Notes under the pieces: model-generated
The model's input: the letters and a program-made list of their open reading frames with translations, nothing else
What the model was told of the DNA's origin: nothing
The model's database searches: none
Part shown: positions 19,070 through 54,065 of the stretch, piece after piece
Layout: each line of letters opens with the position of its first letter
Numbering within the stretch: the first letter of the stretch is position 1
Source: Bradyrhizobium sp. SZCCT0148
GTDB taxonomy: Bacteria; Pseudomonadota; Alphaproteobacteria; Rhizobiales; Xanthobacteraceae
Assembly (NCBI RefSeq): GCF_018129985.1
Contig: NZ_JAFCKT010000013.1
Location: forward strand, 62,001-126,000
Length of the DNA stretch: 64,000 nucleotides
Reading direction: 5' to 3'
Made by a program: the position numbers and the translations under genes

Positions 19070-19584
19070 GGCAAGCGCAGCTCCGTCACTGCGACGGCAC
19101 CGGCATCGGTGAGCACCGTCCGCAAGTCGTTGGGATCGGCTTCGGAGGCGGCGACCAGGATGTAGCGATCCTGGGTCGCGCGCTCGAAGCCCGGGATTTC
19201 GAACAGGGCATCGTGCAGCCGCGGTAGACGGCACGACCGGAGAAAGGCGATTACGCCGGCGAGGGCGGCGGCAAAGATCCCGACCTCGAAGGGGACGAGC
19301 AGGAAGACCTGCCAGGAATTGAGCGGCCGCCCACCGCTGTCGATCGGATAATCGATCACGGCGCTGTACCATTGCAGGCCGAACGCGAAAGCGGCGGTCG
19401 CGAGCCCGCCGATCAGCATCGCCACCCTTATCCGCGAGCGATCGAGTCCGAGCTGCTCCGCCAGCCCATCGATCGGGTAGGGGGTGAAGGCATCCAATGC
19501 GGCATGACCCGTGCTCTTCACGCGCTGCAGCGCGGCTTGCAGCGTTTCGGCGTCGAGGAACTGCGCTACCAGCGTCGCGGTCAT
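19066..19584 (-). CDS. actD: Alternative complex III subunit ActD (DUF3341)
   Basis: A 172-aa membrane protein of the DUF3341/ActD type. An N-terminal soluble part holds the typical FTPYPIDGLAEQLGLDRSR stretch; two membrane helices follow (about residues 54-73 and 91-116), then a soluble tail around EIPGFERATQDRYIL. ActD packs beside ActC in the complex. The start at 19584 is chosen because it overlaps the ActC stop and gives the family length; the long upstream open frame is an antisense-composition artefact. Confidence 0.9.
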   Translation of the reverse strand: MTATLVAQFLDAETLQAALQRVKSTGHAALDAFTPYPIDGLAEQLGLDRSRIRVAMLIGGLATAAFAFGLQWYSAVIDYPIDSGGRPLNSWQVFLLVPFEVGIFAAALAGVIAFLRSCRLPRLHDALFEIPGFERATQDRYILVAASEADPNDLRTVLTDAGAVAVTELRLP

Positions 19585-23785: not shown

Positions 23786-24426
23786 ATTGTGCAGTCCGTC
23801 AAATGATCCGTGTGGATGTGATAGGTCGCGGCGAGCTTCGCGCCGGCCTCGGCCTGGTCTTTCGGTGCGTGCCAGTTAGGGTCGAACACCGCCTCGGCGG
23901 GACGCAAATGCGGTGCGGGGTTGCGGTGGCAGTCGAGGCACCATTGCATCGTGAGCGGCGCCGCCTGCCGCATCAGCCGCATCTGTCCGACCTCGCCATG
24001 GCAGGTGGTGCAGCCGACGCCCTTGGCGACGTGAACCGAATGATCGAAATAAACGTAATCCGGCAGCCGGTGGACACGCGTCCATGCGATCGGCTGGCCT
24101 TTGGCGAGACTCTCGCGCACCGGCACCAGCATCTGCGCGTTGGTCCAGATCTGCGAATGGCAGGTCATGCAGGTCTCGGTCGGCGGCATGCCGGCAAAGC
24201 GCGCCTTCTCGACCGAGGTGTGACAGTAACGGCAGTCGAGCCCGAGCCCCGAGACATGATGCTCGTGGCTGAACGGCACCGGCTGGTTCCGCGTGACGTG
24301 CTGGTCGGTCACATAGGGCGACCGCATCAATTGATAGGACAGACCGACGGCCAGCACCGGGGTTGCTCCAATCGCCGCGATCACCAGCGTGGCGATCGTG
24401 TTCGCGCCGGGACGAAAAAGCTGCAT
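23773..24426 (-). CDS. actA: Alternative complex III subunit ActA, pentaheme cytochrome c
   Basis: A 217-aa protein with one N-terminal membrane helix (about residues 10-32) and five CxxCH heme sites: CRYCH, CMTCH, CTTCH, CLDCH and CTICH. Five hemes is the number known for ActA. It is anchored in the inner membrane with the hemes in the periplasm and takes electrons from ActB. Its start lies only 28 bp after the stop of the formate-dehydrogenase-like gene, so the two are probably co-transcribed. Confidence 0.94.
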   Translation of the reverse strand: MQLFRPGANTIATLVIAAIGATPVLAVGLSYQLMRSPYVTDQHVTRNQPVPFSHEHHVSGLGLDCRYCHTSVEKARFAGMPPTETCMTCHSQIWTNAQMLVPVRESLAKGQPIAWTRVHRLPDYVYFDHSVHVAKGVGCTTCHGEVGQMRLMRQAAPLTMQWCLDCHRNPAPHLRPAEAVFDPNWHAPKDQAEAGAKLAATYHIHTDHLTDCTICHR

Positions 24427-24454: not shown

Positions 24455-26749
24455 TCACGCGCGAATGCGAACCGGGACCGATTTTGCCGCCGGCGTCTTG
24501 GAGTGCTTGTCGTGGTGCGACAGCGGGATCAGCGGATTCATTTCCGGGTAGTAAGCGCCGACGCAGCCGTCCGGCAGTTTGAACGGAGTCACCTTGAGCG
24601 GTCCCACTTCGCGCGAGACGCCGTCCTCGGCGTCACTGACCAGCGAAACCATCTGGCCGTCCTGCAGACCGGCGCGCGCGATCTCGTCCGGATTCATCAG
24701 CAGCACGTCCCGCGTACCCTCGATGCCGCGCAGGCGGTCGCTGTAGCCGTAGATGGTCGTGTTGAACTGGTCGTTGCTGCGCATGGTCAGCAGCCGGTAG
24801 CGGCCAGCCGCATCGGAAAAGCCGGTCGAGGTCAGCGTGTCCGGCACGGTGAATTCGGCCTTGCCGCTTTCGGTCTTCCAGATCCGTTCGCGGGCCGAGT
24901 TGCCGCGGTAGAAGCCGCCCGGCGTGAACATGCGCGCGTTGAAGTCGTGGAATTCGTCCGGATAGGTTTCGGCGATCTCGTTGCGGATCAGGTCGTAATT
25001 GCCGACCCACGCATCCCAGGCCAGTTTGGGGTAGGACCGCAGCGTCGCCTTGGCGAGACCCGCGACTATCGCGACTTCGGATTTGAGATGCTCGCTCGCC
25101 GGTTTGCTCAGCCCGATCGAGCCCTGGATGCAGCTGAACGTGTCCTCCATGGTGAGGGCTTGCTGCCCGCTCGCCTGAATGTCTTCCTCGGTGCGGCCGA
25201 GGCAGGGCAGCAGATACGCGGCCTTGCCATGGATCAGGTGGCTGCGATTGAGCTTGGTCGCGATCTGCACCGTTAGCTCGAGGCCGCGCCAGGCCTTTTC
25301 CATCTTCGACCGCTCGGGAATGGCTCGCACGAAGTTTCCACCTAACCCGACGAAGGCCTTGACCTTGCCGGCCAGAACGCCTTCGCAGGTCTCGACGGTA
25401 TTCATGCCCTTTTCGCGCGGTGGCTCGAACCCGAACTGCTTGGCGTATTTGTCGAGGGGAACCAGCTCGGGTTTCTCCGAAATGCCGACGGTGCGCTGAC
25501 CCTGCACATTAGAATGCCCACGCACCGGCGAAATCCCGGTGCCGTCTCGCCCGATGTTTCCCTTCAGAAGCAGCATGTTGACGAGCATTGCCACGTTCTG
25601 AAAGCCGTGCACGTGCTGGGTCAGGCCCATGCCGTAGATGCCGATTACGCGGTCTGCCTCGACATAAACCTGCGCGGCCTCCTCAATGACGGATCGGCTC
25701 AGGCCAGAGGCGGCTTCGATTTCCTCCCAGGAAGTCGCTCGGACTTTGGCCTCGAAGTCTTCGGAACCGTGCGTGTGCTGCTCGATGAAGGGAGCATCGA
25801 TGACACGTTTGCCTTGCTGCTTTGCCGCGTCGTCGGCGGCGAAGACATGCTTGCAGATGCCGACGATGACCGCGATGTCACCGCCAACTTTCACCTGGTG
25901 GTACTGGCTGCTGATCTGCGTAGCCTTGCCCGTAAGCATCTCCGCCGGATTCTGGGGATTGATGAAGACTTCGAGGCCCTTTTCACGCACAGGATTGAAG
26001 GTGATGATCTGTACACCGCGCTTGGCCGCGTCCTGGAGTGGATGCAGGAAGCGCGGACTGTTCGATCCCGTATTCTGCCCGAAGAAGAACATTGCATCGC
26101 AGTTGCTGAGGTCGTCGAAGACCACGGTTCCAACGCCAGCGCCAATCAGCTTTTTGAGCGCCACGGACGTCGTTTCGTGGCACATGTTCGAACTATCAGG
26201 CAGGTTGTTGTTGCCATAAACCCGCGCGAACAGGGCATAGAGATAGGAGGTCTCAAGGCTGGCGCGACCCGATGAATAGAACACGACCGACTTTGGATCG
26301 AGAGCCTTCAATTGCGAACCGATAGCTTGAAACGCCTCATCCCAGGAGCAGGGCACGTATTTGTCAGTGGCACTGTCGTAGCGCAGAGGGTGTGTCAGTC
26401 GTCCCTGCTGCTCGAGGTCGTAATCGCTCCAGGAGAGCAGCTCGGTCAGTGTGTGCTGGGCGAAGAACTCCGGCGTGCAGCGGCGTGAGGTCAACTCCCA
26501 AAGGGTCGCCTTGGCGCCGTTCTCGCAGAATTCGAACGTGTGGTAATCGGCCGGCTTTGCCCACGAGCAGGAAACGCACATGAAGCCTTTCGGCTTGTTT
26601 TGCCGGCGAAGGGTATTCAGCGCCGCCGGCGAATCCCACTCTTTGCCGAATATCCGGGCAATCCCTTCGAGAGAGCCCCATCCGCCGGCTGGACCGTCGT
26701 ATTCAACTGTATTGGGAGTTTCGTCGCCAGCCTTGTTCGGTCGCGCCAT
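24455..26749 (-). CDS. YdeP-type molybdopterin oxidoreductase (formate-dehydrogenase-like alpha subunit)
   Basis: A 764-aa FdhF/YdeP-family enzyme. No signal peptide is present, so it is cytoplasmic. Cys58, Cys61 and Cys75 form an N-terminal cysteine group, Cys190 in SNMCHET takes the place of the selenocysteine, and the molybdopterin-guanine contacts (SPVRGHSNVQG) and C-terminal dinucleotide domain (RSNDQFNTTIYGY) are present. Formate oxidation is the usual prediction, though YdeP in E. coli is linked to acid resistance. No beta or gamma subunit follows; ActA does. An exact EcfG promoter lies 45 bp upstream, and FdhD is divergent. Confidence 0.9.
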   Translation of the reverse strand: MARPNKAGDETPNTVEYDGPAGGWGSLEGIARIFGKEWDSPAALNTLRRQNKPKGFMCVSCSWAKPADYHTFEFCENGAKATLWELTSRRCTPEFFAQHTLTELLSWSDYDLEQQGRLTHPLRYDSATDKYVPCSWDEAFQAIGSQLKALDPKSVVFYSSGRASLETSYLYALFARVYGNNNLPDSSNMCHETTSVALKKLIGAGVGTVVFDDLSNCDAMFFFGQNTGSNSPRFLHPLQDAAKRGVQIITFNPVREKGLEVFINPQNPAEMLTGKATQISSQYHQVKVGGDIAVIVGICKHVFAADDAAKQQGKRVIDAPFIEQHTHGSEDFEAKVRATSWEEIEAASGLSRSVIEEAAQVYVEADRVIGIYGMGLTQHVHGFQNVAMLVNMLLLKGNIGRDGTGISPVRGHSNVQGQRTVGISEKPELVPLDKYAKQFGFEPPREKGMNTVETCEGVLAGKVKAFVGLGGNFVRAIPERSKMEKAWRGLELTVQIATKLNRSHLIHGKAAYLLPCLGRTEEDIQASGQQALTMEDTFSCIQGSIGLSKPASEHLKSEVAIVAGLAKATLRSYPKLAWDAWVGNYDLIRNEIAETYPDEFHDFNARMFTPGGFYRGNSARERIWKTESGKAEFTVPDTLTSTGFSDAAGRYRLLTMRSNDQFNTTIYGYSDRLRGIEGTRDVLLMNPDEIARAGLQDGQMVSLVSDAEDGVSREVGPLKVTPFKLPDGCVGAYYPEMNPLIPLSHHDKHSKTPAAKSVPVRIRA

Positions 26750-26793
26750 GATCTTGCTTCTCTTCCGGAACCCGCCAGACCCGGTGCATCGCC

Positions 26794-26818
26794 AACGTAT
26801 GTTCGTGATGGCGGTTCC
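26794..26818 (-). promoter_or_regulatory. Exact EcfG-type promoter of the fdhF-act-cox run
   Basis: On the minus strand GGAAC (26818-26814), a 16-bp spacer and CGTT (26797-26794) match the alphaproteobacterial general-stress sigma factor consensus exactly. The -10 element is 45 bp before the ATG at 26749. The match is direct; use by EcfG is inferred. Confidence 0.65.
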
Positions 26819-27004
26819 TCGGCTCGGCCCTTCTTGCCACTCCGAGAACGGAGATAGTGCTGCGGAAAAAGGCCAACGACACCAAAGTCTTCGATCGGAC
26901 GGCGGATGGCGCGTCTCATTCGCGATAGATAGTTTGCTCGCTGCCGTACCGGAAATCGCGCACTCGGGCGATGTTGATTGGGCGAGTTCGTTCGATAGGG
27001 GCGA

Positions 27005-27029
27005 GGAACCGGGGCGCCCGGCAGAGGTT
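27005..27029 (+). promoter_or_regulatory. Near-consensus EcfG-type promoter of fdhD
   Basis: GGAAC at 27005-27009, a 16-bp spacer and GGTT at 27026-27029, one mismatch from the EcfG consensus, 26 bp before the FdhD start. Its pairing with the exact site on the other strand makes it more believable than alone. Confidence 0.45.
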
Positions 27030-27055
27030 GCCAGACGCCAATCTCGGAGCCGGCC

Positions 27056-27913
27056 ATGGATGATCGCTGCACACTCAACAAGCCAGAGCTGGTCTGGCGA
27101 GGGCGCGATCCGATCCCGTCTTCGCGCAGAGTCGCAGAGGAGCGGCCGATAGCGCTCACCTACAACGGATCGACCTATGCGGTAATGATGGCCTCGCCAG
27201 CCGATCTCGTAGACTTCGGTATCGGCTTTACCTTAAGCGAAGGCATTGTGGACGACTGTGATGACATCCTCAGCATCGACACCGTCGAGCTCGAGCTGGG
27301 GTGCGAACTGCGGATCTGGCTCGGCGGCTCGCATGCTGATCTCCTTGCCAACAGGCGGAGGGCGATGGTCGGGCCGGTCGGCTGCGGCCTTTGCGGAATC
27401 GAGAGTTTGGAGCAGGCCTGCCCACGCCCGGCGCGCGTCGTCAGCCTCGCTGGATTTCACCCGTTTGACATTTTGAAGGCGATGGCCTCGTTGCGGCCGC
27501 TCCAGCAACATAACCAGGCGACGGGCGCGATGCACGCGGCGGCGTTCTGGGGCGGCGATGACATTCGATTGGTCAGGGAGGACGTCGGACGCCACAATGC
27601 GCTGGACAAGCTCGCTGGTGCGATAGCCAGAGCCGGCCTGGAGACGTCGCGGGGGGCTGTCCTCATAACGAGTCGGGTCTCCGTCGAATTGGTGCAGAAA
27701 ACCGCACGCATGGGCGTGCCGCTTCTTGTCGCCGTTTCAGCGCCGACTTCGCTGGCGATCGAGACCGCCGAGCGGGCGGGCGTTACGCTCGTCGCCGTCG
27801 CACGTGACGATGGTTACGAGATATTCAGCCATGCAAGCCGGCTGCTCTTTGAAACGAAAGAACTGGTCTCCGCTGGGGTCGAGAGGCCGGCTCCCGAGAT
27901 GCTTTCCCGCTGA
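27056..27913 (+). CDS. fdhD: FdhD, formate dehydrogenase sulfur-transfer accessory protein
   Basis: A 285-aa FdhD. The sulfur-carrying Cys110 and Cys113 lie in VGPVGCGLCGIESL, and the C-terminal nucleotide-binding region (LVREDVGRHNALDKLAGA, ITSRVSVELVQK) is complete. FdhD takes sulfur from a cysteine desulfurase and sulfurates the molybdenum cofactor of formate dehydrogenases. Its divergent position next to the FdhF-like gene supports a true Mo-dependent formate dehydrogenase. The ATG has GGAG upstream. Confidence 0.95.
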   Translation: MDDRCTLNKPELVWRGRDPIPSSRRVAEERPIALTYNGSTYAVMMASPADLVDFGIGFTLSEGIVDDCDDILSIDTVELELGCELRIWLGGSHADLLANRRRAMVGPVGCGLCGIESLEQACPRPARVVSLAGFHPFDILKAMASLRPLQQHNQATGAMHAAAFWGGDDIRLVREDVGRHNALDKLAGAIARAGLETSRGAVLITSRVSVELVQKTARMGVPLLVAVSAPTSLAIETAERAGVTLVAVARDDGYEIFSHASRLLFETKELVSAGVERPAPEMLSR

Positions 27914-28612: not shown

Positions 28613-30388
28613 ATGAATGTCAGCGAATTCGTTTGGCACCGGTTGTCCGAATGGGGATTGCGCCGGGTCTATGGCTATCCCGGCGATGGCGTCGGTGGAC
28701 TGGACGTCGCTATCGAACGCGCGAGAGACGTGATCGATTACGTCCAGGTCCGGCACGAAGAGATGGCGGCCTTCATGGCCTCCGCTCATGCGAAGTTCAC
28801 GGGGCAGGTGGGACTTTGCTATGCGACCTCAGGGCCTGGCGCAATTCACCTTCTTAACGGGCTCTACGACGCCAAGATGGACCACGTTCCGGTGGTTGCT
28901 CTCGTGGGCCAACAGGCGAGGAGCGCAATCGGGGCGAGCTATCAGCAGGAAGTCGATCTGCAGGTTCTGTTTCAGGACGTCGCCGAATACGTCGGGCAGG
29001 CAAGCGTGCCCGAGCAGGTGCGCCACTTGATCGATCGCGCTGTACGAATTGCCCACAACAAACGTGCCGTCGCCTGCGTGATCCTGCCGAAAGATGTGCA
29101 GGAACTGGATTACAAAGATCCCCCTCTCGCCCACGGTGCGACCCACACCGGCGTTGGCTACGCCGAGCCCGCGAAGCGTCCGGATGACGATTTGTTGCGC
29201 GCCGCCGCCGGAGTTCTGAACGAGGGCAATAAGGTCGCAATGCTTGTCGGAGCAGGCGCCTTGGGTGCCACCGACGAGGTCATTGCGATGGCCGAACGCC
29301 TGCAGGCCGGTGTGGCCAAAGCCCTCCTTGGAAAGGCGGCCGTCCCGGACGAACTCCCCTTTGTAACCGGTTCGATCGGACTGCTCGGCACCAAGCCGAG
29401 TTGGGACCTCATGAAGAATTGCGACACCTTCCTGATGGTCGGTTCGTCGTTTCCCTACAGCGAGTTTCTGCCGAAGCCCGGCGCGGCGCGCGGCGTTCAG
29501 ATCGATATCGACGGCGCCAGGTTGAGCCTGCGTTACCCCATGGAAGTCAACATCGTCGGGGACAGCTCCTTGGCGTTGCAGGCGCTGCTGCCGCATCTTC
29601 AGCAGAAGCAAAAGTCATCTTGGCGAAGTGACATCGAGCAAGGCGTGCAGGAATGGTGGCAGACGCTTGAAAAGCGCGCCATGGATTCGGCGGAGCCGCT
29701 CAATCCGCAACGCGTATTCTGGGAGCTCTCGCCCCGTCTCCCTGAGAACGCGATCATCACTGCGGATTCAGGCTCAGTGGCCAATTGGTATGCGCGCGAT
29801 CTGAAAATGCGCCGGGGCATGAAAGCTTCGCTCTCCGGAGGTCTGGCTTCCCTGGGTGCAGGAACACCTTACGCCTTGGCAGGGAAGATGGCCTATCCGG
29901 ACAGGACAGTCATCGCCTGCATGGGCGACGGTGCGATGCAGATGAACGGACTGAACGTCCTCATCACCATCTCGAAATATTGGCGGGCCTGGTCAAATCC
30001 ACGCCTGATCGTGCTCGTCCTCAACAACCGCGATCTCAATCAAGTCACGTGGGAGGAGCGGATTCAGCTCGGTGCGGGAAAGACGCTTTCTACCCAGAGC
30101 ATCCCAAATTTTCCCTACCACCGCTACGCCGAGCTGATCGGCCTCAAGGGTATCTTTGTCGACAATCCGGACCGAGTCGGCCCTGCTTGGGATGAGGCAT
30201 TATCGGCGGATTGTCCCGTGGTCCTTGAGGCGTACACCGATCCCAACGTTCCACCGCTGCCGCCCCACATCACGCTCAAGGACGCCAAGAATTTCGTCAG
30301 TATGATTCCTTCGGAGCCGGAGCTCGGCAGCGTTCTGAAGAACAGCGCCAAGGAGCTGTTGACGAGCGTACTGCCCGGGAAGGAATGA
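28613..30388 (+). CDS. Thiamine-pyrophosphate-dependent enzyme, PoxB-like
   Basis: A 591-aa TPP enzyme with the three-domain plan of pyruvate oxidase and acetolactate synthase. The activating Glu50 lies in RHEEMAAF, and the TPP/metal site is GDGAMQMNGLN with the later Asn in LNNRD. The C-terminal membrane-binding tail of E. coli PoxB is not obvious. It decarboxylates a 2-oxo acid; pyruvate is a guess. The ATG at 28613 is chosen by homology start (NVSEFVWHRL); only a weak GAGA site precedes it. It leads a nine-gene run and overlaps the next gene. Confidence 0.87.
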   Translation: MNVSEFVWHRLSEWGLRRVYGYPGDGVGGLDVAIERARDVIDYVQVRHEEMAAFMASAHAKFTGQVGLCYATSGPGAIHLLNGLYDAKMDHVPVVALVGQQARSAIGASYQQEVDLQVLFQDVAEYVGQASVPEQVRHLIDRAVRIAHNKRAVACVILPKDVQELDYKDPPLAHGATHTGVGYAEPAKRPDDDLLRAAAGVLNEGNKVAMLVGAGALGATDEVIAMAERLQAGVAKALLGKAAVPDELPFVTGSIGLLGTKPSWDLMKNCDTFLMVGSSFPYSEFLPKPGAARGVQIDIDGARLSLRYPMEVNIVGDSSLALQALLPHLQQKQKSSWRSDIEQGVQEWWQTLEKRAMDSAEPLNPQRVFWELSPRLPENAIITADSGSVANWYARDLKMRRGMKASLSGGLASLGAGTPYALAGKMAYPDRTVIACMGDGAMQMNGLNVLITISKYWRAWSNPRLIVLVLNNRDLNQVTWEERIQLGAGKTLSTQSIPNFPYHRYAELIGLKGIFVDNPDRVGPAWDEALSADCPVVLEAYTDPNVPPLPPHITLKDAKNFVSMIPSEPELGSVLKNSAKELLTSVLPGKE

Positions 30389-31482
30389 TGGTCGAGATCT
30401 CTGTCGAGGCAGTCAAGGCTCGTGCCTTCGAGATTCCAACCGATCGACCGGAGGCCGACGGGACGATGAGTTGGAATTCCACAACTTTAGTTCTGGTCGA
30501 AGTCGCGGCCGGCGCCAAGTCCGGGCTTGGTTACACGTATTCTGACCACAGCATAGTTGCGCTCATCACGAGCAAGCTCGCCTCGATCGTCTGCGGGATG
30601 AATGCCCTCGCGCCCGAAACCGCTTGGATGGCGATGCAGCGCGCGGTTCGCAATCTGGGACGCGAAGGCCTCGCTGCGAATGCTATCTCGGCGGTCGATA
30701 CGGCTCTCTATGACTTGAAGGCGCGGATTTGGGGTGTGCCCCTGGCTCAGCTGCTCGGAAGCTACCGAAGAAATGTCCCGATCTATGGAAGCGGAGGTTT
30801 CACGACTTACTCGGACACCGAATTGGCCGAACAGCTCGGCAAGTGGGTTGCCGACGCTGGGTGCACGAACGTCAAGATGAAAGTGGGCTCGGAGCCGGAC
30901 CTCGATCCGCATCGCGTGCAAGTGGCAAGCCGCGCGATTGGCGAACGCGCCAATCTCTTCGTCGATGCAAACGGTGCTTACTCGGTGAAACAAGCGCTAG
31001 AGCTTGCGGATCTCTTCGAGCCTCACCGTGTCAAATGGTTTGAGGAGCCGGTGTCGTCGGACGACCTCGCGGGCTTGCATGCGGTTCGCGCCCGTGCCCC
31101 GGCAGGCATGGAGGTTGCTGCGGGTGAGTACGCTTACACCACAGACTATGTGCGGACGATGCTGGAAGCGTCGGCAGTCGACGTTCAGCAGGCCGATATC
31201 ACCCGGTGCGGCGGCGTAACCGGGTTTCTGAAAATCGCCTCGCTTTGCGAGGCGCACCAAATCGATCTGTCGGGCCATTGCGCGCCGGCTCTGCATCTCC
31301 ACGCCGCCTGTGCTGTGCCGCGCCTACGGCATCTGGAATGGTTTCACGATCACGTTCGCATCGAACATATGCTTTTCGACGGCGCGCCGAAGCCACGTAA
31401 TGGTGCGATCCAGCCCGACCTGTCGGTAGCGGGCAACGGCTTGATCTTAAAGGAAGCGGATGCTGAGCGCTATGCGATCTAA
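30385..31482 (+). CDS. Enolase-superfamily enzyme, mandelate racemase/muconate-cycloisomerase type
   Basis: A 365-aa enolase-superfamily protein. Metal ligands are seen in DANGAY, WFEEP and AAGEYAY; the catalytic Lys-x-Lys is in NVKMKVG; and the Asp/His pair of the mandelate racemase subgroup is suggested by QADITRCGG and SGHCAPALH. Such enzymes remove an alpha proton from a carboxylate, often dehydrating sugar acids. In this operon a sugar acid is the likely substrate, giving a 2-keto-3-deoxy acid. ATGA overlap with the TPP gene. Confidence 0.87.
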   Translation: MMVEISVEAVKARAFEIPTDRPEADGTMSWNSTTLVLVEVAAGAKSGLGYTYSDHSIVALITSKLASIVCGMNALAPETAWMAMQRAVRNLGREGLAANAISAVDTALYDLKARIWGVPLAQLLGSYRRNVPIYGSGGFTTYSDTELAEQLGKWVADAGCTNVKMKVGSEPDLDPHRVQVASRAIGERANLFVDANGAYSVKQALELADLFEPHRVKWFEEPVSSDDLAGLHAVRARAPAGMEVAAGEYAYTTDYVRTMLEASAVDVQQADITRCGGVTGFLKIASLCEAHQIDLSGHCAPALHLHAACAVPRLRHLEWFHDHVRIEHMLFDGAPKPRNGAIQPDLSVAGNGLILKEADAERYAI

Positions 31483-32422
31483 CCAGGCTAGAAAAGATAA
31501 GGCGCGCGGAAGCTTCCAAGCTCTGCCCGTCGAAGCGATGCGGGCAAGACCGCTGCGTCTGTCGGTACCTCGCTCGCTCTCCCGCTCCGCGCAGCGCGAG
31601 GCCGAGACCGTTTCGGCAGCCCGGCGTCTGAATCGAGCCGCGGGCATGTTGGCCGCGTCCGTCCTTGCCGACAGCGCTCTCGAGCACTACCGTGGGTCAT
31701 TCAAGAATAAGGCGATGTTCACCCCGCTGGTCGTTGCCGGGTTGACCTTGGCAATGAGCCTGCACGGCACGGCGGACCGGCGCCCGGTTGCACACAGAGC
31801 ACGAGACGCGTCGTATCTTTCGGCGGCCGTCACCGGCCTGATTGGGACAGGCTTTCACATCTACAATGTGACGAAAAAAGTCGGCGGCCTGAGCTGGCAG
31901 AACGTATTCTACGGTGCTCCCCTGGGCGCGCCGATGGCTATTCTGCTCTCCGGGATGTTGGGCTTTTGCTCGGAACGTGTGCGCGCCAACGGGCGCCGGC
32001 GGTCTCGTCGGATCTTCAAGCTTCCCGCGGCTGAGACGGTCGCAACAGTATCAGCGCTGGGCCTCCTTGGAACCTCGGGAGAGGCGGGGTTGCTCCATTT
32101 TCGCGGAGCCTTTCACAACCCCTTCATGGCCGTTCCCGTGACCCTCCCGCCGATCGGCGCTGGCTTACTCGCCGGCGCGGTATTGAACGGTGGAAGGCGG
32201 ATGCGCGGCCTTGCGCGATGGTGGATGCGGCTGCTTGCGTTGATGGGTTTTGCCGGCGTTGGCTTTCACGCCTATGGCGTCTCGCGAAACATGGGCGGCT
32301 GGCGCAATTGGAGCCAAAACATCCTCAACGGACCGCCTCTGCCGGCACCCCCAAGCTTCGCTGGGCTCGCAATGGCTGGGCTTGCTGCGCTCGAGTTGAT
32401 CAGAGAGGCACGAGATGCTTGA
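31460..32422 (+). CDS. Internally duplicated multi-span membrane protein, function unknown
   Basis: A 320-aa protein with a basic N-terminus and about seven hydrophobic segments. It has a clear tandem duplication with an offset of 137 residues: EHYRGSF at 75-81 matches LHFRGAF at 212-218, and GFHIYNVTKKVGG at 131-143 matches GFHAYGVSRNMGG at 268-280. AAAGGA precedes the ATG and it overlaps the upstream gene by 23 bp and the next by 8. I do not recognise the family. It may anchor the dehydrogenase encoded next; this is inference. Confidence 0.75.
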   Translation: MLSAMRSNQARKDKARGSFQALPVEAMRARPLRLSVPRSLSRSAQREAETVSAARRLNRAAGMLAASVLADSALEHYRGSFKNKAMFTPLVVAGLTLAMSLHGTADRRPVAHRARDASYLSAAVTGLIGTGFHIYNVTKKVGGLSWQNVFYGAPLGAPMAILLSGMLGFCSERVRANGRRRSRRIFKLPAAETVATVSALGLLGTSGEAGLLHFRGAFHNPFMAVPVTLPPIGAGLLAGAVLNGGRRMRGLARWWMRLLALMGFAGVGFHAYGVSRNMGGWRNWSQNILNGPPLPAPPSFAGLAMAGLAALELIREARDA

Positions 32423-33077
32423 TCGGAAGGCGGAGCTTCACAATGCCTACCCTGGCTATGACGTGCTTGCGAAATGGCGGAGCCCATCCTGGAATGAGAA
32501 GACGCGGGAGGTGATCGCGGCTCGCTTGCAGGTGCCAGACGAGCCGCAATTCCTGACCCTGGATGAGTTTGAAGTGCTCACCGCAATCGCCGATCGCATC
32601 GTGCCGCAACCTGCGTCGAGGTCGCCTGTTCCCGTGGCCGGCCTGCTTGATCAAAAGCTGCGAGCCGGCGTGATGGACGGCTATCGTGTCGTGGGCCTGC
32701 CGGGCGACGGCGAAGCTTGGCGAAGGGGGCTCGGAGCCCTGAATGCGGAGGCGAGAGCCCGCCACGACTGTGGCTTCGCAGCGGTCGCTGATGGCGATCA
32801 AGACGATCTACTAAGGCGCTGCGAGGCGGGCGAATTGAACGCGCCGGAATGGGCCGGCATGCCGTCGCAGATCTTCTTCAAACATCGTCTGCTGCGCGAT
32901 GTAGTTCTGGCTTACTATTCTCACCCTACTGCGTGGAGCGAGGTGGGGTGGGGCGGACCCGCCAGTCCGCGCGGCTACGTGCGGCTCGATTTCAACGACC
33001 GTGATCCCTGGGAGGCGGCCGAAGCCATGCCGGGCCGGGAGGTCGAAGCTCGGAGGATCAATCGAAATGTCCGATGA
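32415..33077 (+). CDS. Gluconate 2-dehydrogenase subunit 3-like protein
   Basis: A 220-aa protein resembling the small (gamma) subunit of FAD-dependent gluconate/glucose dehydrogenases, with the typical FLTLDEFEVLTAIADRIVP opening. The usual twin-arginine signal of this subunit is missing, so either the enzyme stays in the cytoplasm or export is by another route. In the family the subunit is needed to fold and export the FAD subunit, which is the next gene and overlaps it by 11 bp. Confidence 0.85.
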   Translation: MLDRKAELHNAYPGYDVLAKWRSPSWNEKTREVIAARLQVPDEPQFLTLDEFEVLTAIADRIVPQPASRSPVPVAGLLDQKLRAGVMDGYRVVGLPGDGEAWRRGLGALNAEARARHDCGFAAVADGDQDDLLRRCEAGELNAPEWAGMPSQIFFKHRLLRDVVLAYYSHPTAWSEVGWGGPASPRGYVRLDFNDRDPWEAAEAMPGREVEARRINRNVR

Positions 33078-34722
33078 TCCGCTTCACAGTCCACGTGCAA
33101 TCAACGGCCGCGCGCCCGACGTCTTTCGACCCGGCCGCTGGGTGAGCATGAAACAATACGCCGAGCATGAGGCGGTTGACTTCGTGATCGTCGGGACTGG
33201 GGCCGGCGGTGCGACGCTCGCCTGCAAGTTGGCCGAATACGGGTTCACGGTGGTGGCCCTCGATGCCGGCCCTTACTTCCGGCCCCTTGAGGATTTCGCC
33301 TCCGACGAGTCCGAGCAGACCAAGCTTTATTGGACAGACGACCGCATTGTCGATGGTGACAATCCCTTGCAGCTCGGAAGCAACAACAGCGGCAAGGCCG
33401 TCGGAGGCTCGACCGTGCATTTCGCAATGGTATCGCTCCGGTTCCGGCCGGAATGGTTCAAAGCCAGGACCAAACTTGGCTACGGTGCGGACTGGCCGAT
33501 CGATTGGCGCGAGATGTGGGCTTACTACACGGAAGTCGAGCAGGCCCTTAAAGTCTCCGGCCCTGTCAACTACCCCTGGGGACCGCCGCGTCCGCGCTAT
33601 CCTTATCGCGCCCATCCGCTCAATGCTGCTGCCCGCGCGCTCGCGCGCGGCTGCGAAGCCCTTGGTATCGGCTGGACCGAGACGCCGCTCGCAACCCTCT
33701 CTGCGCCGCGCGGCCTCGCACATCCATGCGTCTATCGCGGCTTCTGCGTGACCGGTTGCTCGACGAATGCCAAGCAAAGCGCGCTCGTGACGTGGATTCC
33801 GCGCGCTCTGTCTGCCGGCGCCGAGATCCGGGATCTCGCCATGGTCGGCCGGATCGAGACCGACGCGAATGGCCTCGCCGTCGGTGTGCACTATAACCGC
33901 CAGAACCAGTGGCGCTTTCAGAAGGCGCGCAACGTGGTGGTGGCCGGCTACGCGATCGAAACACCGAGGCTCCTGCTGAATTCGGCGACCGACAAGTTTC
34001 CGGATGGCCTGGCAAACAGGTCCGGACTTGTCGGCAAGAATCTAATGGCACAAGCAAACCAGGCGGTGTGGGGCGAGATGGACGAGGAGGTCCGCTCGTA
34101 CAAGGGACCTCCGTCCCTCGCCATCACCGAGCACTGGAATTACGAGGATGAGGGCAAGGATTTCTTTGGTGGCTACGCTTACATGAGCCAGGGCCCCCTT
34201 CCGCAGCTATGGGCCAACACGCAAGCGACGGCGCATGGTCTGTGGGGGACGCGACTGGTCGAGGCGATGAAGCGTTATAACCACGTCGTGGGCTTGAAGA
34301 TCGTTGGGGAGATGCTGCCTCAGGAAAGCAACCGCGTCACGTTGGCCGACGAAGTCGATCAATACGGGCTGAGAATTCCGCGCGTTACCTACTCCTGGTG
34401 CGATAACGACAAGCGCCTGATCGATCACTCCGTCGCCTTCATGAGCCGGGCTCTGGGCGCGATCGGCGCCAAAGACTTGTGGGTGCAGGAAGACGACACC
34501 TGTCATCTCAACGGTACGGCCCGGATGGGCGATCGGCCGGACAACAGCGTCGTCAATGCGGACTGCCGCAGCTGGGACATCCCCAATCTCTGGATTTGCG
34601 ACGGCTCCGTGTTTCCGACCGTGGGCGGCGCGAATCCGTCCCTGACAATTCAGGCGATTGCTTGCCGCACGGCGGATCGAATTCGGGGTCTGTCCCGAGT
34701 GGGAGAGATCAGATTGAATTAG
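33067..34722 (+). CDS. GMC-family FAD dehydrogenase with predicted [3Fe-4S] cysteines
   Basis: A 551-aa GMC oxidoreductase, the catalytic subunit type of FAD glucose/gluconate dehydrogenases. The FAD loop is VGTGAGGATLA at residues 42-52, and the C-terminal catalytic region HLNGTARMG and GGANPSLT are present. Cys221, Cys227 and Cys231 (spacing x5 and x3) match the [3Fe-4S] ligands of bacterial FAD-glucose dehydrogenase. No signal peptide, and no cytochrome c subunit follows. GGAGG precedes the ATG at 33067. The sugar oxidised is not known. Confidence 0.9.
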   Translation: MSDDPLHSPRAINGRAPDVFRPGRWVSMKQYAEHEAVDFVIVGTGAGGATLACKLAEYGFTVVALDAGPYFRPLEDFASDESEQTKLYWTDDRIVDGDNPLQLGSNNSGKAVGGSTVHFAMVSLRFRPEWFKARTKLGYGADWPIDWREMWAYYTEVEQALKVSGPVNYPWGPPRPRYPYRAHPLNAAARALARGCEALGIGWTETPLATLSAPRGLAHPCVYRGFCVTGCSTNAKQSALVTWIPRALSAGAEIRDLAMVGRIETDANGLAVGVHYNRQNQWRFQKARNVVVAGYAIETPRLLLNSATDKFPDGLANRSGLVGKNLMAQANQAVWGEMDEEVRSYKGPPSLAITEHWNYEDEGKDFFGGYAYMSQGPLPQLWANTQATAHGLWGTRLVEAMKRYNHVVGLKIVGEMLPQESNRVTLADEVDQYGLRIPRVTYSWCDNDKRLIDHSVAFMSRALGAIGAKDLWVQEDDTCHLNGTARMGDRPDNSVVNADCRSWDIPNLWICDGSVFPTVGGANPSLTIQAIACRTADRIRGLSRVGEIRLN

Positions 34723-34732
34723 GAGGATACCG

Positions 34733-35173
34733 ATGAGGCAAAAGCTCCTCAACGACAGCGCGCAGCGAACCTTTGCAGTCATCCTCGACAGCGGCGACGA
34801 GGCGATGGAAAGCCTCAAGTCCTTTGCGGCGGCGCAGCGGATCTCCGCAGCCCAAATCACCGGCATCGGAGCCTTCAGCGGGCTGGTGCTGAAATACTTC
34901 GATTGGGAGAAAGAGACATACCTCGAGAATCGCGTAGACGAACAGGTGGAGGTCGCTTCGCTCGTCGGCGATATCGCGGTTTCGCCGTCGGGCGAACCTT
35001 CCGTGCACGTCCATCTCGTTGTCGGGCGGCGCGACGGCACCGCTCTCGCCGGCCACCTTGGATCGGCTCGGGTGCGCCCCACTCTCGAGGTGATCGTAAC
35101 CGAAAATCCCGCGCATCTTCAGAAGGCGCACGATCCCGTGACGGGGCTGGCGTTGATCAAGCTGGAGCGATGA
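34733..35173 (+). CDS. PPC/DUF296-domain protein
   Basis: A 146-aa single PPC (DUF296) domain. The family's core is visible: ITGIGAFSGLVLKYFDWE, and the His-containing strand SVHVHLVVGRRDGTALAGHL with metal-ligand-like histidines. Stand-alone bacterial members form trimers and their role is unclear; they are called DNA-binding by analogy with plant AT-hook proteins, but no AT-hook is here. It has a strong ribosome site (AGGAGG) and overlaps the next gene by 4 bp. Confidence 0.87.
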   Translation: MRQKLLNDSAQRTFAVILDSGDEAMESLKSFAAAQRISAAQITGIGAFSGLVLKYFDWEKETYLENRVDEQVEVASLVGDIAVSPSGEPSVHVHLVVGRRDGTALAGHLGSARVRPTLEVIVTENPAHLQKAHDPVTGLALIKLER

Positions 35174-35556
35174 CAATGCAGAGCATCGGTCGCACAATGT
35201 GGGCCATCCCGGAAGGCTATATCCCAAGCGACAGCGTCAGCGACGCGCACGATCTTGTGTCGCATGAGGCGGCGTGCTTCCTGAACACGGGCGATCGCGA
35301 CGCAGACGTCCGGATTACGCTGTTCTTCGAGAACAGGGCTCCGGTCGGCCCCTACCGGGTGAAGGTGCCGGCCAAGCGCACTCTGCATCTCCGCTTCAAT
35401 GATCTGACCGACCCCGCTCCGGTTCCGCGCGACACGAGTTACGCTTCAATTATCGAGGCGAGCGAGCCGGTGATCGTTCAGCATACCAGGCTCGACTCGC
35501 GCCAGCCAGCAATGGCGCTGCTGTCGACCATTGCCTACCCGGCCGTACCGGAGTGA
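35170..35556 (+). CDS. Sensory-rhodopsin-transducer-like (ASRT family) protein
   Basis: A 128-aa protein closely matching the Anabaena sensory rhodopsin transducer family along its length: IGRTMWAIPEGYIP at the start, EAACFLNTGDRDADVRIT, PAKRTLHLRFNDL, and VQHTRLDSRQ near the end. The family is a beta-sandwich tetramer and has been proposed to bind small molecules such as sugars. No rhodopsin is in the window, so a metabolite-binding role in the carbohydrate operon is more likely. The ATG overlaps the previous stop (ATGA). Confidence 0.9.
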   Translation: MTMQSIGRTMWAIPEGYIPSDSVSDAHDLVSHEAACFLNTGDRDADVRITLFFENRAPVGPYRVKVPAKRTLHLRFNDLTDPAPVPRDTSYASIIEASEPVIVQHTRLDSRQPAMALLSTIAYPAVPE

Positions 35557-35568
35557 GGAGATGTCCTA

Positions 35569-36642
35569 ATGAATGACGAAGCGAGCTTGAATGAGGGGCC
35601 GGTCCGTCCCCGTCCGGTTGTCGTGGTCACAGGGGCATCCGCTGGGGTTGGCCGGGCCATCGCCCATCGTTTCGGCCGCGCCGGTTACTCCATCGGTCTG
35701 ATCGCCCGAGATGTGGAAGCCCTCGAGGATGTGCGGCGCGAGATCGAGGACGTCGGAGGACGGGCGGTTGTGATGCCTCTGGATGTGGCGGATGCCGGCG
35801 CCGTCTTTGCGGCAGCGGACCGCATCGCATCGACGCTGGGTCCGATCCACATCTGGATCAACGACGCGATGGTGACGGTGTTCTCTCCGGTTTGGCGCAT
35901 GACGCCCGATGAATTCCGCCGTGTCACCGAGGTCACCTATCTCGGCTTCGTGCACGGAACGATGGCGGCCCTGCGCCACATGCGGCCCGCAAACAGGGGG
36001 ACGATCATCCAGATCGGATCGGCGTTGGCCTACCGCGGCATTCCGCTCCAGTCGGCCTATTGTGGGGCCAAGCACGCCATTCGCGGTTTCACGGATTCGC
36101 TGCGAAGCGAGCTGAGGCACGAGCAGAGCAGGCTCAATTTGATGATGCTGCAGCTGCCGGCGGTCAACACTCCGCAATTCGATTGGGCGAGGGCGCATAT
36201 GCCGCGGACGCCGAGGCCAGTGGCGCCTGTGGTCGAGCCTGAGGTCATCGCGAATAAAGTGTACGATGCAGCTCAAAGGCCGGCGAGGGAGTATTGGATC
36301 GGTTTCAGCACCCTAAAGGTCATTCTTGGCAACATGATCTTGCCGGGGCTGCTGGATCGCTATCTCGCACAAACCTGTATCAGTGGCCAACAGACGGATC
36401 GCCCGATCGATCCAAGTCGGCGGGACAACCTCGATCAACCCGTACGCGGCCTTCATCGCACCAGGGGGAGCTTCGCTTCGGAGGCGGTCGATAGCGCCTT
36501 TGCCGGACCGGCAAGCATGCTGCGGCTTGCTCCGGTCATGGCGCTGTTGGGAACAGCTGCGTTGGCGGTGGTGGCTGCACGGGCATCGCGAAGCAGGAGC
36601 AGCAGACATCGTCGACGTCAACGCGATGCGCGACTTGGATGA
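35569..36642 (+). CDS. Short-chain dehydrogenase with C-terminal membrane tail
   Basis: A 357-aa SDR. The nucleotide loop TGASAGVG is at about residues 21-28, the NNAG motif is altered to NDAM, and the catalytic Ser and YCGAK are at about 147-166. Classic SDR length ends near 250; the extension holds a hydrophobic segment (APVMALLGTAALAVVAA) and a strongly basic tail, suggesting membrane attachment. It lies 12 bp after the ASRT-like gene and overlaps the GH15 gene by 17 bp. Substrate unknown; an alcohol or sugar in the operon's pathway is likely. Confidence 0.87.
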   Translation: MNDEASLNEGPVRPRPVVVVTGASAGVGRAIAHRFGRAGYSIGLIARDVEALEDVRREIEDVGGRAVVMPLDVADAGAVFAAADRIASTLGPIHIWINDAMVTVFSPVWRMTPDEFRRVTEVTYLGFVHGTMAALRHMRPANRGTIIQIGSALAYRGIPLQSAYCGAKHAIRGFTDSLRSELRHEQSRLNLMMLQLPAVNTPQFDWARAHMPRTPRPVAPVVEPEVIANKVYDAAQRPAREYWIGFSTLKVILGNMILPGLLDRYLAQTCISGQQTDRPIDPSRRDNLDQPVRGLHRTRGSFASEAVDSAFAGPASMLRLAPVMALLGTAALAVVAARASRSRSSRHRRRQRDARLG

Positions 36643-38434
36643 GAGCTTCCCAGTGCCGACGAAGTCCATCGAGGATTATGGGCTGATTGGAGACTGCCAG
36701 ACGGCTGCCCTCGTGCATCGTGACGGTTCGATCGAGTGGCTGTGTTGGCCGCGCTTCGATTCGGACGCTTGCCTTGCGGCCTTGCTCAGCACGGACTCAC
36801 ATGGACGTTGGAAGATGGCGCCGGTCGAAGCCGGCAGTTCATCGCGCCGCCGCTATCGCACCGATACGCTCGTGCTCGAGACGGAGTTTGAGCTGACGAC
36901 GGGCTGTGTCCGTCTGATCGATTTTATGCCTATCGAGGGCAACGCATCTGCCGTGATCCGGATCGTTCGGGGCCTTGCGGGCAAGGTGAAGTTGCGCAGC
37001 GAGCTGGACCTGCGCTTCGACTATGGATCCTTGAGACCCGCAGTTGAGACCGATCGACAACAGGCCGTCGCCTTCGTGGGACCGCATCTCGTCGTTCTGC
37101 ATGCACCGTCACAGGTCTCGCAGCAGGGCTCCTGCATCGTATCGGAAGTGGAGGTGAGTGAAGGGGAGGAGATCGCATTTTGTCTCCGATACGGCAGCGC
37201 AACGGGTGCGCCGCCTCCGCCGCTTGCCTCCGCGGCAGCTATGCACAAAACGGAGGAATATTGGCTCAATTGGATTGCGAAGTTCTCGATCCAAACGCGG
37301 TGGCCCGAGGCCGTCAGGCGCTCCCTCTTGACGCTCAAGGCGATGATTTTTTGTGCGACAGGCGGCATCATTGCCGCTCCCACCACCTCACTTCCGGAGG
37401 CGCCGGCCCAGGACCTGAACTGGGATTACCGATATTGCTGGCTGCGGGATGCAGCGTTCACGATAACGGCTCTGCTTGATGCCGGGTATCAAGAGGAGGC
37501 CAGGGCGTTCCGCGACTGGCTTCTCCGGGCTGCAGGTGGCGAGCCTGACAAGATCAGAATCATGTACCGCGTGGATGGCTCGCGTCGTCTGGAGGAATGG
37601 GTGGCATCCTGGCTCCCGGGGTTCAGAGGGGCGAGGCCGGTGCGAATTGGAAATGCCGCGGCCGCCCAGCGACAGCTCGACGTCTACGGCGAGCTCCTTG
37701 ATTCTGTGGCTGCCGCAGCGAAGATGGGCGTTGTCCCGACCGATCGTGAAGCCGATCTGATTGCTTCCGTGATCGCTCACGTCGAAGGGGTTTGGGATGA
37801 GCCCGACCATGGTTTGTGGGAATTGAGAGGACATCCGCAGCACTACACATATTCCAAAGTGTCGGCCTGGGCCGCGGTGGATCGCTTCGTCCGTCGTGAT
37901 GATCTCCATCGATCGGCGGACAACGCCTTTGTGAAGCGAATGGTGGGGCTGCGGAACCGGATGCATCGCGAGATATGCGAAAAGGGGTTCAACCGCCAAC
38001 GAGAGACATTTGTAGAGTACTACGGCTCTGAGGAGGTGGATCCGAGCCTGCTCAACCTGCCTTTGGTGGGCTTCCTGCCTGTTACGCATCTGCGCATCGA
38101 AAAGACGATTGCTGCGATCGAGCGCGAGCTCGTGCACGACGGGTTCGTCCATCGCAAGTTGTCAGGCGAAATTCGCGAGGGAGCGTTTCTCGCATGCACC
38201 GGATGGCTCGTCGAATGCCAATTGATGCAAGGGCGACGGGCCGAAGCGGAGCGAACCTTCGCTCATCTCTTGCGAGCGCGAAATGATCTCGGATTACTAG
38301 CTGAGGAGTTCAACGTGCGCGATGGCCGCTTAGCCGGCAACTTTCCTCAGGCATTGAGCCATCTGGCATTGGTCCGCGCCGCCCTTCGCTTCGAAAATAA
38401 GGCATCCAACCGAGGGGACGGACACGGAACATAG
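36626..38434 (+). CDS. Glycoside hydrolase family 15 protein
   Basis: A 602-aa GH15 protein with the N-terminal super-sandwich domain (IEDYGLIGDCQTAALVHRDG) and the (alpha/alpha)6 barrel with conserved NWDYRYCWLRDA, QLDVYGELLD, LGLLAEEF with its catalytic Glu, and GNFPQALSH. No signal peptide, so it is cytoplasmic. Bacterial members act as glucoamylase, glucodextranase or trehalase. The start at 36626 is chosen by homology to the paralogue at 51901; the open frame runs further upstream inside the SDR gene. Last gene of the run. Confidence 0.9.
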   Translation: MRDLDESFPVPTKSIEDYGLIGDCQTAALVHRDGSIEWLCWPRFDSDACLAALLSTDSHGRWKMAPVEAGSSSRRRYRTDTLVLETEFELTTGCVRLIDFMPIEGNASAVIRIVRGLAGKVKLRSELDLRFDYGSLRPAVETDRQQAVAFVGPHLVVLHAPSQVSQQGSCIVSEVEVSEGEEIAFCLRYGSATGAPPPPLASAAAMHKTEEYWLNWIAKFSIQTRWPEAVRRSLLTLKAMIFCATGGIIAAPTTSLPEAPAQDLNWDYRYCWLRDAAFTITALLDAGYQEEARAFRDWLLRAAGGEPDKIRIMYRVDGSRRLEEWVASWLPGFRGARPVRIGNAAAAQRQLDVYGELLDSVAAAAKMGVVPTDREADLIASVIAHVEGVWDEPDHGLWELRGHPQHYTYSKVSAWAAVDRFVRRDDLHRSADNAFVKRMVGLRNRMHREICEKGFNRQRETFVEYYGSEEVDPSLLNLPLVGFLPVTHLRIEKTIAAIERELVHDGFVHRKLSGEIREGAFLACTGWLVECQLMQGRRAEAERTFAHLLRARNDLGLLAEEFNVRDGRLAGNFPQALSHLALVRAALRFENKASNRGDGHGT

Positions 38435-38534: not shown

Positions 38535-39305
38535 ATGCAGGACGGTCGAGTAACTGGGTTAGCGCCAAGGCTGATCGAACCCGAAGGCCACGTTCGGGCA
38601 CTGACCGTACGAAACAAGCTGCTGAGCTGCATTCCGGGGGCAGAGTTGGAGGTGCTTCGATCGATCGGGACGGAGGTCGAAATCAAGCCGCGTCAAGTCC
38701 TGCATCATTGGCGCTTGCCGATGGAATACGTCTATTTTCTCAATGACGGGCTCATATCGGTCTCGGCCAAGGTGGAGCCGAATCGTTTCGTCGAGGCGTG
38801 GCTTGTCGGCGCCGAAGGAATGATTGGAGCCCCCTGTGTTTTGGCACCGGAAGATCCAATGCCCCCGCACCGCCGTGTGGTCCAGGTCGGCGGAACCGCC
38901 CTGCGAATTCCGACCCAGGCGTTTGTTGCAACGCTGGACGAGCTCCTGGCTCTTCGCGGAATAATCCTTCGCTATATCAATCTCGTGTTGTTTCAGACTT
39001 CCCAGGTGGGAGCCTGCAACTCGCTGCACTCGGTCCGGCAGCGGCTTGGCCGTTGGCTTCTCGTCGCGGCCAACGCGATGGACTCGAACGATTTGCCGAT
39101 CACGCATGCCGTGTTGGCTCAACTGCTCGGGATCCGCCGTGCCAGTGTTAGCGAGTGTCTCGAGACGTTCGAGCAGGCGGGCATCATCCGCAACACGCGA
39201 GCTGCAATAACTCTGATCGACCGGGCTCAGCTGCAGCATCTGGCATGTTCGTGCTCTGGATTGATACAGCGCGAGTACGATCGGCAAATCCGATCTCGCG
39301 CATAG
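38535..39305 (+). CDS. Crp/Fnr-family transcriptional regulator
   Basis: A 256-aa Crp/Fnr regulator: beta roll about 25-140, dimer helix around 140-165 and winged helix with ITHAVLAQLLGIRRASVSECLE near residue 185. It ends in a rhizobial-type C-terminal Cys-x-Cys (ACSCSGLIQREYD). It is more distant from the genes at 10707 and 58081 than these are from each other. A GGAAC-N16-CGTA near match to the EcfG consensus (38452-38476) and a GC-rich hairpin (38489-38519) lie just upstream. Confidence 0.86.
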   Translation: MQDGRVTGLAPRLIEPEGHVRALTVRNKLLSCIPGAELEVLRSIGTEVEIKPRQVLHHWRLPMEYVYFLNDGLISVSAKVEPNRFVEAWLVGAEGMIGAPCVLAPEDPMPPHRRVVQVGGTALRIPTQAFVATLDELLALRGIILRYINLVLFQTSQVGACNSLHSVRQRLGRWLLVAANAMDSNDLPITHAVLAQLLGIRRASVSECLETFEQAGIIRNTRAAITLIDRAQLQHLACSCSGLIQREYDRQIRSRA

Positions 39306-53742: not shown

Positions 53743-54065
53743 CAGGACACCATTGATGGTCAATGTAAGTCGCGCCCTCCAGTTCCGCGCTCAGGTGGTC
53801 CCGGGCATGTACTTTCGTTTAGAGCGCGGCACGCGGAAGCAGAACCGGATGAAATCAGCACCCGCGCCGTATCGCTCGCGCTGAGCGGTGCGCCGGCTCT
53901 CACCACGTCCAGCACCCGCATTTGAATGGAAGGCCCGTTTTTGCCGACGACAGTACCTGCCGAGGCGTACCCGGAGGCATCGAGGAGGGACGCAGCCGTC
54001 CGGAGGCTGGTACGGCTAGGCCTTCAGAGAAAAGAGGCGCTTACGGAGAAATGCCAGCACCATGA
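53743..54065. other. Intergenic stretch upstream of the GH15 gene
   Basis: About 320 bp. It contains the promoter of the GH15-SDR pair on the minus strand. No gene is recognised; possible remnants related to the ribonuclease HII relic that follows cannot be identified. Confidence 0.4.

Follow-up and report, generated by a model that had tools for sequence, protein, structure and literature searches.

In a stretch of 64,000 nucleotides from Bradyrhizobium sp. SZCCT0148 (contig NZ_JAFCKT010000013.1, positions 62,001 to 126,000; hereafter the window; source genome 7.17 Mb), nine genes on the + strand at 28613-38434 combine a five-gene core with four accessory genes. Judged by gene order, the core, TPP-MLE-MEM-GDH3-GMC, is a unit, which recurs across Alpha- and Betaproteobacteria and in Deinococcus. 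In other lineages, its last three genes are replaced by a single gene for a YdiJ-like FAD/Fe-S protein. The cassette is probably a cytosolic, quinone-linked module for the oxidation of sugar acids, to which some bradyrhizobia add genes for sugar release and sensing; we hold this reading with moderate confidence. The nine genes, with starts picked from the sequence alone, are:

28613..30388, +, TPP: thiamine diphosphate (ThDP)/FAD enzyme of the PoxB branch (PRK08273); NCBIfam NF006129, 1010 bits against a cut-off of 724
30385..31482, +, MLE: enolase-superfamily enzyme of the mandelate racemase subgroup, 3cyj-like; PF13378 and PF02746; 3cyj, E 2.4e-118
31460..32422, +, MEM: membrane protein with two repeats of four predicted transmembrane (TM) helices each and four invariant His; repeat alignment, without Pfam or NCBIfam family
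32415..33077, +, GDH3: gluconate 2-dehydrogenase subunit 3 family, without export signal; PF13618, 76 bits
33067..34722, +, GMC: FAD dehydrogenase with a 3Fe-4S cysteine motif (C-x5-C-x3-C); PF00732 and PF05199; glucose dehydrogenase chain 8hdd, E 3.8e-48
34733..35173, +, DUF296/PCC-domain protein, accessory; PF03479, 95.9 bits
35170..35556, +, ASRT-like protein, accessory; PF07100, 167.5 bits; SHEAACFLN signature
35569..36642, +, SDR of the PRK07109 subfamily, accessory; NF005495, 460 bits against a cut-off of 264
36626..38434, +, GH15 with a TREH_N domain, accessory; PF00723, 216.7 bits, and PF19291, 62.8 bits

Gene order of the core and its exchange for a YdiJ-like protein

The profile matches in Pfam and NCBIfam and the coordinates bore out the gene families, shared orientation and tight packing given in an initial annotation of the window: neighbouring genes overlap by 4, 23, 8, 11, 4 and 17 bp or are separated by 10 and 12 bp. 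Promoter and terminator scans of the window were no richer than shuffles, co-transcription being confirmed by no tool, and scans with Rfam and for tRNAs gave no matches in the window.

Using tblastn with the window proteins, 33 distinct loci were annotated, 28 of which bear MEM. The seed was MEM for 19 of these, ASRT for eight and the window itself for one, whereas GDH3 and GMC never served as seeds. Both genes stand behind MEM in 28/28 MEM loci, 27 of which show the order given above, the exception, L082, being on the opposite strand. The five genes are contiguous in 24 of the 28, and TPP-MLE adjoins in another arrangement at L053 and L082. The arrangement is not a product of chance, as genes are found in this order in further genomes. 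The core was also found on annotated plasmids of Nitrobacter, Lichenicola, Komagataeibacter, Caballeronia, Deinococcus peraridilitoris, B. japonicum, Paraburkholderia and Rhizobium.

The accessories are less constant. ASRT is present in 11, DUF296/PCC in nine, SDR in 16 and GH15 in 10 of the 28 MEM loci, where identity thresholds and a limit of 9 kb hide weaker SDR and GH15 copies, e.g. an annotated SDR in L091. The initial annotation, which had made a neighbourhood conserved in relatives its test, thus holds for gene order, but its nine-gene unit shrinks to a core of five; DUF296, ASRT, SDR and GH15 come and go. In genome samples that include the window's own genome, ASRT is sporadic (9/195 genomes of the genus, 23/149 of the family, two of these by short partial matches, and 5/398 of the phylum), MEM was present in 16/190 genus and 3/289 class genomes, and MLE of the 3cyj-like subfamily (E ≤ 1e-70) is rare, with 2/299 phylum genomes.

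In Chthoniobacter, Rhodanobacter, Spirosoma, an alphaproteobacterial metagenome-assembled genome and L052, a single protein of some 1000 residues follows TPP-MLE. The two of these YdiJ-like proteins that were scanned contain the Pfam domains FAD_binding_4, FAD-oxidase_C, Fer4 and CCG. The domain order is shared with the D-2-hydroxyglutarate dehydrogenase YdiJ, the best NCBIfam match, but the score of 503 bits is below the cut-off of 1350. Since the first five YdiJ-like loci had been found via ASRT, the presence of ASRT in 5/5 of them reflects selection. For a seed that is neutral between the two types, plasmids were searched with MLE, which gave 31 records. Twenty of these are listed MEM records (eight fetched); three further MEM records were unlisted. 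Among the 11 others, 10 were fetched, and the remaining one is a second record of the same strain's plasmid. The 10 fetched plasmids without a listed MEM match comprise two of the MEM type and eight of the YdiJ-like type (Rhizobium Q54, Sinorhizobium sojae, three Rhodococcus, two Streptomyces and Streptantibioticus); in both Streptomyces loci the YdiJ-like gene precedes MLE or TPP.

Altogether, 43 loci comprise 30 of the MEM/GMC type and 13 of the YdiJ-like type (28 and five among the 33 annotated loci, two and eight among the MLE-seeded plasmids), and none has both in the stretches fetched. A search of the whole genomes of four ASRT loci without MEM, three of them YdiJ-like, found MEM in 0/4, the search having no positive control. 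Not counted were YdiJ-like proteins of 34-35% identity near ASRT (L035, L037-L039, L046), these loci being without MLE. In trees of MLE and of TPP, the YdiJ-like rows are scattered. At the Granulicella locus, MLE and MEM are separated by a cyclase-family gene, and the annotation gives GMC as two pieces.

Properties of the core proteins

The best PDB match of TPP is E. coli PoxB, a pyruvate:quinone oxidoreductase (E 9.7e-81). The alignment covers most of the length of TPP (residues 3-562 of 591, FPY segment included), leaving the C-terminal tail, and with it any PoxB-like membrane binding, outside the alignment. TPP stays below the cut-offs of all five pyruvate oxidase/dehydrogenase models among the 25 models listed (355 of 792 bits for the pyruvate oxidase model PRK09124), whereas the PRK08273 model was passed. 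Where PoxB reads YFQE, TPP reads YQQE, which places Gln at the position of Phe112. This Gln was found in 45/45 TPP sequences, including the window and five ASRT neighbours without MLE. We take Phe112 to contact the methyl group of the substrate in the pocket of PoxB; its replacement by Gln therefore argues against plain pyruvate as substrate.

In MLE, the residues K164, K166, D194, E220, E248, D271, H298 and E318 are invariant in 31/31 sequences, window included. These we take to be the KxK motif, the three metal ligands and the Asp-His dyad of the mandelate racemase subgroup. All catalytic residues are common to the MR/MLE protein 3cyj of the same subfamily, presumably a Rubrobacter protein, for which we know of no assigned substrate. 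The residue set fits a putative dehydratase or racemase alike and does not choose between them, and MLE scored below the cut-off of the NCBIfam equivalog for talarate/galactarate dehydratase (174 of 500 bits). According to De Souza, Iyer and Aravind (2009; PMC2739507), Rubrobacter xylanophilus carries an ASRT paralogue beside a dehydratase/racemase.

GMC with GDH3 resembles, as far as sequence can tell, the catalytic pair of a three-subunit FAD/3Fe-4S dehydrogenase. In the PDB, GMC comes nearest to the catalytic subunits of two bacterial enzymes, glucose dehydrogenase and fructose dehydrogenase. In the glucose dehydrogenase of Burkholderia cepacia, the paper on the crystal structure gives Cys212, Cys218 and Cys222 as ligands of the 3Fe-4S cluster and Cys213 as the partner of subunit gamma in a disulfide (PMC6719666). 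The window GMC reads CVYRGFCVTGC: the three ligands are kept, as the initial annotation of an Fe-S GMC dehydrogenase implied, but Val takes the position of Cys213. The motif is present in 28/29 GMC sequences, window included; the 29th reading frame (L017) lies at a locus edge and starts inside the motif. The window GDH3 has neither a twin-arginine motif nor a hydrophobic stretch at its N-terminus, judged by eye. Most homologues begin alike (YPxYDVLxK), several having been read from a too early start. No gene among the nine of the operon matched a cytochrome c family of Pfam. The GMC ligands and the subunit-3 partner are thus common to the FAD glucose dehydrogenase of B. cepacia and to the fructose and gluconate 2-dehydrogenase complexes; in the window, by contrast, subunit 3 is without signal, the cytochrome c gene and the disulfide cysteine are absent and MEM is added. 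Taken together, the missing signal, cytochrome c and disulfide residue suggest that the enzyme is cytosolic and passes its electrons to another acceptor.

At the usual place of the cytochrome subunit stands, by its gene position, MEM, for which no Pfam or NCBIfam family was found at the default threshold and only noise at E up to 1 (FixQ, 0.063). The initial annotation described a duplicated membrane protein, and the two halves do align as a tandem duplication (118 columns, 31% identity; hhalign probability 99.2, E 9.6e-19, one comparison). An AlphaFold model from six close sequences (74-83% identical to that of the window) has eight long helices, with a pLDDT of 69.4 and a pTM of 0.68. Foldseek gave no match of the model to solved structures at E ≤ 0.001, and the best match by VIA, a Bacillus cereus metalloprotein (Z 10.2, rmsd 4.5, 233 aligned), is within the background of helical bundles. 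Invariant in 28/28 MEM sequences are E75, H76, R78, G79, H133, E208, H213, R215, G216 and H270, of which the pairs H76/H133 and H213/H270 occupy equivalent positions of the two repeats. At 31% identity, the Granulicella protein still has the four His, whereas the version of Deinococcus sp. D7000, of 157 residues, consists of a single repeat with one His pair; Lys replaces the Arg in D7000 and in repeat two of Granulicella. In the D7000 locus (L095:10104-13546), this short MEM is accompanied by GDH3 and GMC fused to one protein, and the preceding gene (10104-10502) is unlike MEM. The His pattern is as expected for one ligand-binding pair per repeat, heme being the obvious candidate ligand.

Accessory and flanking genes

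The Pfam match of ASRT spans positions 1-119 of 119. The ASRT-like ligand signature is SHEshChhN in PMC2739507. SHE and the final N were found in 51/51 sequences and the Cys in 50/51, window included. In the DUF296/PCC protein, the HxH...GH motif is present in 11/11 sequences, again with the window. GH15 is below the cut-offs of the archaeal trehalase equivalogs TreH1 (352 of 820 bits) and TreH2. GH15 and SDR are linked repeatedly, Rhodococcus included. In other genera, ASRT is often close to trehalose genes: an otsA homologue was detected by tblastn in 13/34 ASRT stretches outside the core loci, which favours a link of ASRT and GH15 to trehalose or alpha-glucan. At L037, L039, L046 and other loci of the family, ASRT adjoins otsA, and another GH15 lies between otsB and otsA (otsA and otsB by eye in L037). 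Elsewhere in the window (51032-53763, - strand), a second GH15, whose Pfam score is above that of the operon's GH15, adjoins a glucose-1-dehydrogenase-like SDR. On pSymB of Sinorhizobium meliloti (L089:8101-16076), two ASRT genes lie in a run with a TPP enzyme, a D-arabinonolactone oxidase, an alpha-amylase and an L-2-hydroxyglutarate oxidase, and ASRT homologues are reported on six Klebsiella plasmid records.

Three further genes flank the operon:

27056..27913, +, FdhD, upstream flank; TIGR00129, 191.9 bits
28058..28426, +, small PepSY-like protein with a signal-like N-terminus, upstream flank; weak PF13670, E 0.011, below cut-off
38535..39305, +, CRP-like regulator, 100 bp 3' of the operon; PF13545

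The CRP-like gene is kept after the cassette in L003-L006 and before it in L088; it is possible that its product regulates the operon. FdhD is upstream of the cassette also in L002, a genome of the same genus, and in L003, L006 and L088, and is likely the chaperone of the flanking FdhF/YdeP enzyme. The gene of this molybdoenzyme is divergent from fdhD (window 24455-27913), and YdeP homologues flank the cassette in L002, L003, L006, L086 and L088.

On the - strand of the window (13063-24426), genes for a multiheme cytochrome c, a Mo/Fe-S-like subunit and an NrfD-like subunit precede a cytochrome c oxidase operon. The first three we take to be alternative complex III; their best NCBIfam matches are QrcA and DsrP, below the cut-offs. 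Genes of this type are beside the cassette on the Nitrobacter plasmid (L083) and partly in R. binae (L091), and cox genes are near it in L086, L095 and L098. A gluconolactonase-like gene adjoins the cassette in Lichenicola, and GH15 or glucan glucosidase genes are neighbours at several other cassette loci.

With a motif for the general-stress promoter EcfG, no strict match was found upstream of TPP, and one loose match lies before fdhD (27005). In the whole window, the strict motif occurs at chance level (3 against 2.14 expected), and the loose motif shows a modest enrichment (10 against 4.85 expected; 2/100 shuffles were as high).

Proposed function, alternatives and published precedent

In the proposed module, MLE would form a 2-keto-3-deoxy acid by dehydration of an aldonate. 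Oxidation of a hydroxy-acid partner would fall to GMC-GDH3 or, in its place, to the YdiJ-like protein, with electrons passing via the 3Fe-4S cluster and MEM to quinone. The TPP/FAD enzyme would act by oxidative decarboxylation on a 2-oxo acid that exceeds pyruvate in size or polarity, likewise with electrons to quinone. From trehalose or alpha-glucan, GH15 and SDR may provide glucose or the product of its oxidation, and ASRT may bind a sugar-like ligand and tune the enzymes. Quinone is the most likely acceptor, given the PoxB homology, the alternative-complex-III-type neighbours and the nearby cox genes. The exact substrate order is doubtful at best. The theme of sugar and sugar-acid oxidation in the initial annotation was strengthened by the conserved neighbourhood, the catalytic set of MLE in 31/31 sequences and the repeated linkage of GH15 and SDR. 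Its order of steps fared worse: since GMC is interchangeable with a protein resembling 2-hydroxyacid dehydrogenases, it may act after acid formation.

That order corresponds to a linear route, in which GH15 frees glucose, GMC or SDR converts it to gluconate, MLE dehydrates the latter and TPP decarboxylates the resulting 2-keto-3-deoxy acid. That the PDB entries closest to GMC are glucose and fructose dehydrogenases agrees with such a route, as do the gluconolactonase neighbour in Lichenicola, the GH15 and glucan glucosidase neighbours and the changed pocket of TPP. We nevertheless consider it unlikely, because GH15 is present in only 10/28 MEM loci and an alternation of GMC with a 2-hydroxyacid-dehydrogenase-like protein is unexpected for an aldose dehydrogenase. 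The same alternation would suit a module of the lactate type, where MLE racemises a 2-hydroxy acid, pyruvate is the product of GMC or of the YdiJ-like protein, and TPP as pyruvate:quinone oxidoreductase yields acetate. MLE indeed has the complete residue set of mandelate racemase, and PoxB is the nearest relative of TPP. The Gln in place of Phe112 in 45/45 sequences and the scores of TPP below the five pyruvate oxidase/dehydrogenase cut-offs make this module very improbable, the more so as we know of no lactate dehydrogenase of the GMC/GDH3 kind.

Several points weigh against the sugar-acid module as we propose it. The substrates of all cassette enzymes are inferred from sequence, and the binding of FAD and quinone by TPP is judged only from its overall alignment with PoxB. 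The TPP proteins of L013 and L092-L095, which include both types, are only 40-47% identical to that of the window; the TPP subtype is therefore not uniform across loci. MEM-GDH3-GMC occurs without TPP-MLE in the stretch examined at L029 and L081. Genes for alternative complex III or cox subunit I are near only 6/33 core loci, window included (tblastn). A single origin of the YdiJ-like type is rejected by neither the MLE nor the TPP tree (approximately unbiased test, p 0.059 and 0.067), and several swaps are therefore not claimed. Finally, a charge count places the four His of MEM at those ends of TM1, 3, 5 and 7 that are predicted to be periplasmic (summed K+R 18.5 on one side against 7.9 on the other, 8.1 of the 18.5 being within the 55-residue N-terminus), which misfits a simple path from a cytosolic flavoprotein.

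The function of MEM is likewise inferred. Our tentative proposal, which is rather unlikely to hold in full, is that MEM is the first of a novel family of electron carriers in the membrane: its duplicated unit of four helices would bind two hemes or another cofactor by paired His and feed quinone from cytosolic GMC/GDH3, as part of a block tradable against a YdiJ-type enzyme. MEM may instead be a mere membrane anchor of GMC-GDH3, or a transporter, without redox activity. This alternative has a substantial, if minor, chance of being right, in that a cofactor is predicted from the His only, neither Foldseek nor VIA found a convincing structural match and the His are on the predicted outer side. 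Against it stand the occupation of the cytochrome-subunit slot by MEM and the persistence of the His, all four being invariant in 28/28 sequences and kept in Granulicella, with one pair left in D7000.

Part of the gene association has precedent. De Souza et al. (PMC2739507) described ASRT-like genes in company with those for pyruvate decarboxylase/oxidase, amylases, an FAD enzyme related to glycolate oxidase and a dehydratase/racemase of sugar acids; they proposed that ASRT-like proteins sense sugars. These operons share with the window the ASRT-like protein, the pyruvate oxidase-like TPP enzyme, the dehydratase/racemase, an FAD oxidoreductase and an amylase, but have the glycolate-oxidase-related enzyme where the window has MEM-GDH3-GMC. 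The main text of PMC2739507 makes no mention of DUF296, a MEM-like protein, GMC or GDH3. The initial annotation, which knew of no described pathway with this set, is not supported on this point, as the association of TPP enzyme, dehydratase, FAD oxidase and amylase with ASRT is already published there. Open-access literature yielded nothing on the cassette itself, and DUF1362 led to PMC2739507 alone. New are the GMC-GDH3-MEM variant, the exchange with a YdiJ-like enzyme and MEM itself.

The cassette provides testable roles for genes of several phyla whose present annotations go no further than 'hypothetical', 'thiamine pyrophosphate-requiring' or 'enolase C-terminal domain-like'. That two unrelated dehydrogenases take each other's place narrows the reaction they share, and a membrane protein family without Pfam or NCBIfam match is exposed at the usual place of a cytochrome. 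For ASRT-like proteins, a defined operon is now at hand in which the sugar-sensing proposal of 2009 can be tested.

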